Positions 17,467 to 17,547 of a stretch of 64,000 bases of DNA are shown here, in pieces. A program made the position numbers and the translations under genes. The stretch spans positions 82,747 to 146,746 of the forward strand of contig JADHML010000001.1 of the NCBI GenBank assembly GCA_016780065.1, written 5' to 3'. How positions within the stretch are numbered: the stretch's first letter is position 1; the number at the start of each line of letters is the position of its first letter. The notes beneath the pieces are model-generated. The model had not been told where the DNA came from and did not search any database. It saw only the letters and a program-made list of their open reading frames with translations. This stretch comes from Flavobacteriaceae bacterium. Lineage in GTDB: Bacteria > Bacteroidota > Bacteroidia > Flavobacteriales > Flavobacteriaceae.

Positions 17467-17494
17467 AAAAAAAAAATCCCACCGAAGTGGGATT
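17467..17494 (-). terminator. Intrinsic terminator of the tracrRNA-like transcript
   Basis: Minus strand AATCCCAC-TTCG-GTGGGATT followed by an uninterrupted T run (A run on + strand 17467-17476). Confidence 0.85.
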
Positions 17495-17547
17495 GTAGAC
17501 GTTGGTCTGCGGCATTGAGCCTTATTGTGATAAGATGTTCAAATATA
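17467..17547 (-). ncRNA. tracrRNA-like RNA (type II-C style), minus strand; 5' end uncertain
   Basis: Minus strand reads TATATTTGAACATCTTATCACAATAAGGCTCAATGCCGCAGACCAACGTCTACAATCCCACTTCGGTGGGATTTTTTTTTT: anti-repeat, ACAATAAGGC-UCAA-TGCCGC nexus as in II-C tracrRNAs, then a UUCG-loop terminator. Confidence 0.8.

Follow-up and report, generated by a model that had tools for sequence, protein, structure and literature searches.

The stretch of DNA analyzed here (64,000 nucleotides of a Flavobacteriaceae genome, referred to as the window) carries a cas9 gene whose product has lost its nuclease residues, a truncated tracrRNA gene upstream of it on the opposite strand, and two crRNA-like modules downstream of the cas9 stop codon (21032-21055 and 21108-21129). 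Our preferred reading, which we consider reasonably likely, is that this cassette is a domesticated type II-C remnant that has no array, carries two fixed guides and serves as an RNA-guided protein that binds without cutting, probably to repress. We lean slightly toward the fuller reading that it is a vertically inherited Cas9-derived RNA-guided transcription factor, that is, a natural dCas9 with a minimal tracrRNA, two permanent guides and a fixed regulon in marine Flavobacteriaceae. The catalytic loss, the conservation of the tracrRNA and the modules, their complementarity, the synteny and the purifying selection are established at the level of sequence. The host lineage consists of small-genome, mostly marine Flavobacteriaceae, and all of the genomic data are from MAGs.

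A clade of nuclease-dead Cas9 proteins

The protein-coding feature of the cassette is the following:

17557-20994, plus strand: nuclease-dead Cas9, type II-C-like, 1145 aa (TIGR01865, E 3.9e-124)

The preliminary description of this DNA had called the Cas9 nuclease-dead, and the alignment bears this out: T8, Y569 and V647 replace the RuvC-I Asp, the RuvC-II Glu and the HNH Asp/Glu in the window protein. We aligned 15 Cas9 proteins of the dead clade with 17 intact ones. The RuvC-I Asp is T, S, C or F in 15/15 dead-clade proteins (D in 17/17 intact proteins), the RuvC-II Glu is Y, F, T, S or V in 15/15 (E in 17/17) and the HNH acidic residue is V, I or T in 15/15 (E in 17/17). The HNH His is retained in 5 of the 15 dead-clade proteins and is Tyr in the other 10, and the bridge-helix residues Arg 59 and Arg 62 are invariant in the dead-clade alignment. 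L067 is an exception, with the RuvC-I Asp present and the RuvC-II Glu and RuvC-III Asp lost. With regard to type II-C membership, the Cas9 effector is thus present and the RuvC and HNH catalytic residues are absent.

The AlphaFold2 model of the window Cas9 has a pLDDT of 84.4 (it supersedes an earlier model built from 17 sequences, pLDDT 64.7) and its top PDB match is to Nme1Cas9-sgRNA structures (E 1.5e-41). The C-terminal region of Cas9 proteins holds the PAM-reading part. In residues 831-1145, conservation is 0.66 in the dead clade vs 0.65 in the intact Cas9s, while outside these residues it is lower in the dead clade than in the intact proteins; the equal conservation of the C-terminal region is a hint that DNA is still read.

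In a tree of 57 proteins, 25 dead Cas9s all fall to one side of a single branch with support of 100, so that the loss of the catalytic residues is one change on this tree and the inactivation probably happened once. A deeper dead-Cas9 branch (P0037, P0042, P0043 and P0044, 32-35% identity) falls together with the dead clade. Synonymous sites of cas9 are near saturation. For the dead pair L064/L076 we obtained a dN of 0.095 and a dS of 0.83, similar to an intact pair (dN 0.144, dS 0.98); with its low dN relative to dS, the dead protein is under purifying selection. An alignment-based contig scan found 23 cas9 loci.

The rest of the CRISPR locus was searched for as well. None of the dead loci has a CRISPR array in its flanking sequence, whereas arrays built of 36-37-nt repeats (period 66) do occur in several intact relatives. 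We did not detect cas1 (no TIGR00287 match) in 21 genomes, all but one of them incomplete or of unstated completeness, while the controls were positive. Some genomes carry copies of the cassette with deletion alleles and stop codons, and because it is lost or broken in several sister genomes (L062, L063, L075, L048, L049 and L050) the cassette is dispensable, at least for a time. The broken copies differ from each other. G160 (L048) has lost the tracrRNA and most of cas9 yet keeps both guide modules intact, while in G158 (L049) module 1 is mutated and module 2 is lost. For L050 (G154:C84, last 150 bases) the same bin also has a deletion allele, in which the tracrRNA is broken within the anti-repeat and fused to about codon 929 of cas9.

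The tracrRNA gene and the guide-repeat modules

The RNA gene upstream of cas9 and its parts are as follows:

17467-17537, minus strand: truncated tracrRNA gene, predicted transcript of about 70 nt; conserved at 13 loci, with covariation
17540-17547, minus strand: TATATTTG, putative Bacteroidetes -7 promoter box of the tracrRNA
17524-17536, minus strand: anti-repeat remnant AUCUUAUCACAAU, equal to the lower stem and bulge of the anti-repeat of intact relatives
17511-17521, minus strand: nexus hairpin GGC-UCAAU-GCC
17497-17508, minus strand: second stem AGAC/GUCU, with compensatory changes of A-U to G-C and C-G to U-A
17467-17494, minus strand: UUCG-capped terminator hairpin with U run

The minus-strand RNA that had been quoted for 17467-17547 is present letter for letter. 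The gene is antisense to cas9 and lies 20 nt before it, and the element occurs at the same antisense position in 13/13 related loci with upstream sequence (the window, L060-L067, L070, L075, L076 and L291), down to about 40% Cas9 identity. A 16-nt core, CTTATCACAATAAGGC, the GGC/GCC nexus, the second stem and the terminator recur at all of them, including L075, although cas9 there is only a remnant. Across the tracrRNA stems 96.4% of the cells are paired and 15 are doubly changed; none of 500 shuffles reached either value, and pairing fell below 50% once the stem partners were slid by 1-3 columns. The 8-bp UUCG-capped terminator proposed earlier is accordingly a conserved stem with compensatory changes. 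The conservation of the nexus beside orthologous cas9 genes, which the preliminary description had proposed as a check, is complete (invariant in 13/13 loci).

The same nexus, stem and terminator are found antisense and upstream of intact Flavobacteriaceae cas9 genes with CRISPR arrays, in agreement with the likeness to II-C tracrRNAs that had been drawn for the nexus. In the tracrRNA of these intact type II-C relatives CTAATCTTTA precedes ATCTTATCACAAT; CTAATCTTTA is complementary to the repeat of these relatives, GTTGTGGTTTGATTAAAGATTAG, and the full duplex comes to -24.1 kcal/mol. The CTAATCTTTA segment is absent in the dead clade, in which nexus, second stem and terminator are kept and the 12-nt upper anti-repeat is lost, leaving AUCUUAUCACAAU; the anti-repeat-like segment noted earlier is thus real but truncated, its 13 nt corresponding to the lower portion of a full-length anti-repeat. 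The features of a type II-C tracrRNA that are present are an anti-repeat complementary to a repeat (13 nt only), the nexus and the terminator, and the assignment of the window gene as a type II-C tracrRNA is supported by its sequence, structure and position. No model in Rfam 15 recognizes the RNA.

The 5' end had been left between two readings, in which TATATTTG was either anti-repeat or a -7 box. The conservation of TAnnTTTG at a fixed distance decides for the box: it stands 13-14 nt before CTTATC in 11/13 loci (the L063 box has one deviating letter, and the L065 box lies 17 nt further out), and in the dead clade it immediately precedes the remaining 13-nt anti-repeat. Because TATATTTG is read as the -7 box, we expect a transcript of about 70 nt that begins near 17537. 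In four clade-B loci (L064, L070, L076 and L291) TAnnTTTG is preceded by a perfect TTTG at a distance of 21 bp; in the window we too found no proper TTTG box upstream of the tracrRNA -7 box, as had been remarked for the -33 element.

A strongly complementary partner for the tracrRNA 5' end was also looked for elsewhere in the genomes, using TTGTGATAAGAT with <=1 mismatch, and was rejected, as the sequence recurs only at the tracrRNA locus itself and the remaining matches are coding or clade-specific intergenic. The search for a partner of the tracrRNA did uncover two crRNA-like modules after the cas9 stop codon, which the preliminary description had missed:

21032-21042, plus strand: guide 1, AGTTAAAATTT, within >20 contiguous bases invariant in 12 aligned loci
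21043-21055, plus strand: repeat remnant 1, ATTGTGATTTGAT, matching the start of the intact repeat GTTGTGGTTTGATTAAAG
21108-21116, plus strand: guide 2, AAGTATAGT, conserved in genus A (the window's own genus) and clade B
21117-21129, plus strand: repeat remnant 2, ATTGTGATTTGAT, the second and last copy in every locus
21017-21072, plus strand: predicted hairpin with closing stem ACCCAUUUUU/AAAAAAUAAGGGU and module 1 in its loop; each lineage has a stem of unrelated sequence at the same place
20983-21145, plus strand: predicted outer stem AGUCAAUCAU/AUGAUUGGCU that encloses the two modules and overlaps the stop codon of cas9

Discovery relied on a degenerate crRNA-like pattern, TTTG-N8-38-RTTGTGNNNNGAT, which in 6 of the 11 genomes searched hit the same spot, bases right after the cas9 stop. 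The repeat remnant that follows each guide, ATTGTGRTTTGA(T), occurs exactly twice in each of the 13 loci whose 3' end is intact; other DNA, about 550 kb in all, contained a single chance copy. Guide and repeat remnant of module 1 are invariant in the 12 aligned loci despite the near-saturated synonymous sites of cas9; upstream of the final 11-12 bases of guide 1 the sequence differs by lineage (TCGTGA, TCGAGA, TTGTTT, TCTTAA), which suggests a guide length of 11-12. Guide 2 is GAGAATAGT in G043 and G285. A 14-nt tracrRNA segment is predicted to pair with each module at -11.0 kcal/mol, covering 11/13 positions of the remnant, so that the scaRNA-type feature of a degenerate repeat able to pair with tracrRNA is present. 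The earlier claim that the RNA-guidance machinery is preserved is supported in this form, as a tracrRNA whose partner, in place of an array, is a pair of fixed guide-repeat modules downstream of cas9.

A blind search of 400 family genomes with module 1, allowing <=3 mismatches, gave perfect matches in G000, G043, G285, G364 and G188 only, all of them at cas9 loci; the other 15 matches have 2-3 mismatches and look random. Two of these loci were new: the G364 locus combines a dead cas9 with module 2 and a tracrRNA that shows a further compensatory stem, and the G285 locus, which lies at the end of a contig, has the 3' end of cas9 together with both modules. The G188 contig is the same as the L076 contig. 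No viral contig was found to carry the modules or the tracrRNA.

The closing stem of module 1 differs among lineages (CTACCA/TGGTAG, GACCTT/AAGGTC, TYGTTTTGT/ACAGAACRA) and is significant (p<0.05) in 8/13 loci, while that of module 2 is weak and significant in L060 only. The outer stem enclosing both modules reaches about 20 bp in clade B, where it takes in the stop codon (p=0.002 in 7/7 loci); the 10-bp outer stem of the window scored no better than shuffles. We recognized no promoter for the modules, and the possibility that the modules are themselves promoters was discarded, as there is no consistent TTTG/TAnnTTTG pair. We infer an RNA that displays the modules within the cas9 3' UTR, and our guess is that RNase III might release them.

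Proposed mechanism and alternatives

In the mechanism that we propose, Cas9 nuclease activity would have been lost once at the base of the clade; the array and, as far as detectable, cas1 would also have disappeared from the locus. A short tracrRNA would be made antisense to the cas9 leader, and its AUCUUAUCACAAU would pair with AUUGUGAUUUGAU in the two modules of the RNA downstream of cas9. The dCas9 would hold these tracrRNA:module duplexes, each with a fixed guide of about 9-12 nt, and would bind, but not cut, nucleic acid that matches the guide; the most likely targets are DNA of promoters or 5' UTRs, which it would repress. Transcription, RNP assembly, target binding and repression are what we infer from the conserved parts, and repression is modeled by analogy on Francisella scaRNA and TldR. 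Guides of 9-12 nt would fit repression because the F. novicida scaRNA works with 11 bp of complementarity (PMC12231574) and for TldR guides of as few as 6 nt suffice for repression (PMC13418256).

The search for targets bears on the alternatives. For neither guide 1 (11 nt) nor guide 2 (9 nt) did we find an exact match at an orthologous chromosomal site, and G157 has no second guide-1 match. In some clade-B loci the guide-1 seed does occur in the spacer between the two boxes of the tracrRNA promoter (TTAAAATTT in L291, (T)TAAAATTT in L064). Such matches, the position of the modules in the probable cas9 3' UTR, the clade-B stem spanning the stop codon and the failure to find any other target would suit a closed autoregulatory loop, in which the tracrRNA and the modules of the 3' flank have no target other than cas9 itself, as transcript or as locus, and work by base pairing, by processing with RNase III, through mRNA stability or by repressing the tracrRNA/cas9 promoter. 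We regard this as improbable, as two different guides are each conserved, a self-only circuit gives no reason to retain the protein and the promoter match is missing from genus A and G043; autoregulation through the tracrRNA promoter was itself rejected, the guide-1 match being confined to part of clade B. The absence of a long match could also be accounted for by short seeds if the dCas9 and its guides bound host mRNAs, as Campylobacter jejuni Cas9 does with crRNAs. The searches for conserved 9- or 11-nt matches, in which RNA and DNA searches are identical, came back empty and the conservation of the C-terminal region hints at DNA reading, so that we give RNA targeting a small chance.

It is very unlikely, in our judgment, that the cassette serves as a fixed-target defense in which a persistent phage or plasmid is blocked through dCas9 binding alone, with no cutting. 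Its Cas9 ancestry and guides that match no conserved host site would be in keeping with that role, but fixed guides shared by several genera are easily escaped; furthermore, viral contigs contain no match to the 19-nt guide-1 region of genus A, and the eight matches of the AT-rich clade-B version are about the estimated chance level. Finally, the broken alleles and the missing array and cas1 might suggest a functionless, decaying relic of a CRISPR locus. We strongly disfavor this explanation and leave it hardly any weight, given the low dN/dS, the one old inactivation followed by a long-lived clade and the guide modules that stay invariant while synonymous sites near saturation.

The non-cutting binder that we prefer shares with type II-C CRISPR-Cas systems (Neisseria-type, and the intact Flavobacteriaceae loci L052-L057) the Cas9 family and fold, the tracrRNA nexus and terminator, an antisense tracrRNA upstream of cas9 and the repeat start GTTGTGRTTTGAT. 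It differs in its lost nuclease residues, its 13-nt anti-repeat, its two fixed guide modules after cas9, the lack of an array near the gene and the lack of a detected cas1. The F. novicida scaRNA:tracrRNA:Cas9 complex (PMC12231574, PMC8730458) likewise has a degenerate repeat paired to tracrRNA and a short guide of about 11-15 nt, and binding without cutting has been proposed for it; however, that Cas9 is an active II-B enzyme with an array and a known target, whereas ours is a dead II-C protein with two guides after cas9 and no target found. The Neisseria meningitidis scaRNA (PMC13431127) is also an extra small RNA with a type II-C locus, but it acts on the efeUOB 5' UTR and binds active Nme1Cas9 independently of tracrRNA, and the passages considered here describe no repeat remnants with fixed guides. 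TldR proteins, nuclease-dead TnpB-like repressors (PMC13418256), offer a domesticated dead effector with a fixed guide RNA beside its gene, but they are of TnpB ancestry, phage-borne in that study and linked to their target gene, while here the effector is Cas9, no target gene is adjacent and the likeness is one of working only. The long tracrRNA of Streptococcus pyogenes (tracr-L; PMC8730458) shares RNA-guided repression by Cas9 from a tracrRNA-derived guide, which for our cassette is a proposal, and differs in being a single long RNA with an active Cas9, whereas the tracrRNA here is shorter than normal.

We found no natural dead-Cas9 clade described in the open PMC literature. dCas9 is known as an engineered tool. 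If our reading is true, a single ancient loss of activity, after which the protein, the tracrRNA and two guides were all conserved, would mean that evolution itself built CRISPR interference. The cassette would also show how small a dual-guide RNA can be for Cas9 (a 13-nt repeat and anti-repeat), would define a family whose conserved guides point to conserved targets, and would supply a compact scaffold with two guides that is open to direct testing.

Genomic setting of the cassette

In genus A, clade B and G043, cas9 is flanked by the same PPIase and DUF456 genes, followed by ruvC and hemW, and five further genes upstream of cas9 are also common to all three. Judged by this gene order, the locus is vertically inherited.

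Conserved hairpins occupy the interval between the PPIase gene and the tracrRNA (window 17069-17460). The PPIase terminator hairpin has a long loop with CCCTTTTTTGCCC at its end, and in genus A a U run accompanies a plus-strand GTCGNNG..CNNCGAC hairpin. In clade B (L064, L066, L067, L070 and L076), some 130-200 bases before cas9, we observed an invariant GCTTTGATTGTTATGCTACGC within interleaved covarying stems (GGTTC/GAACC and GTAGC/GCTAC), possibly a pseudoknot RNA, with no match in Rfam. Elsewhere in the window, a SAM-II riboswitch (39752-39811, plus strand, 74.6 bits) lies directly 5' of an ORF.
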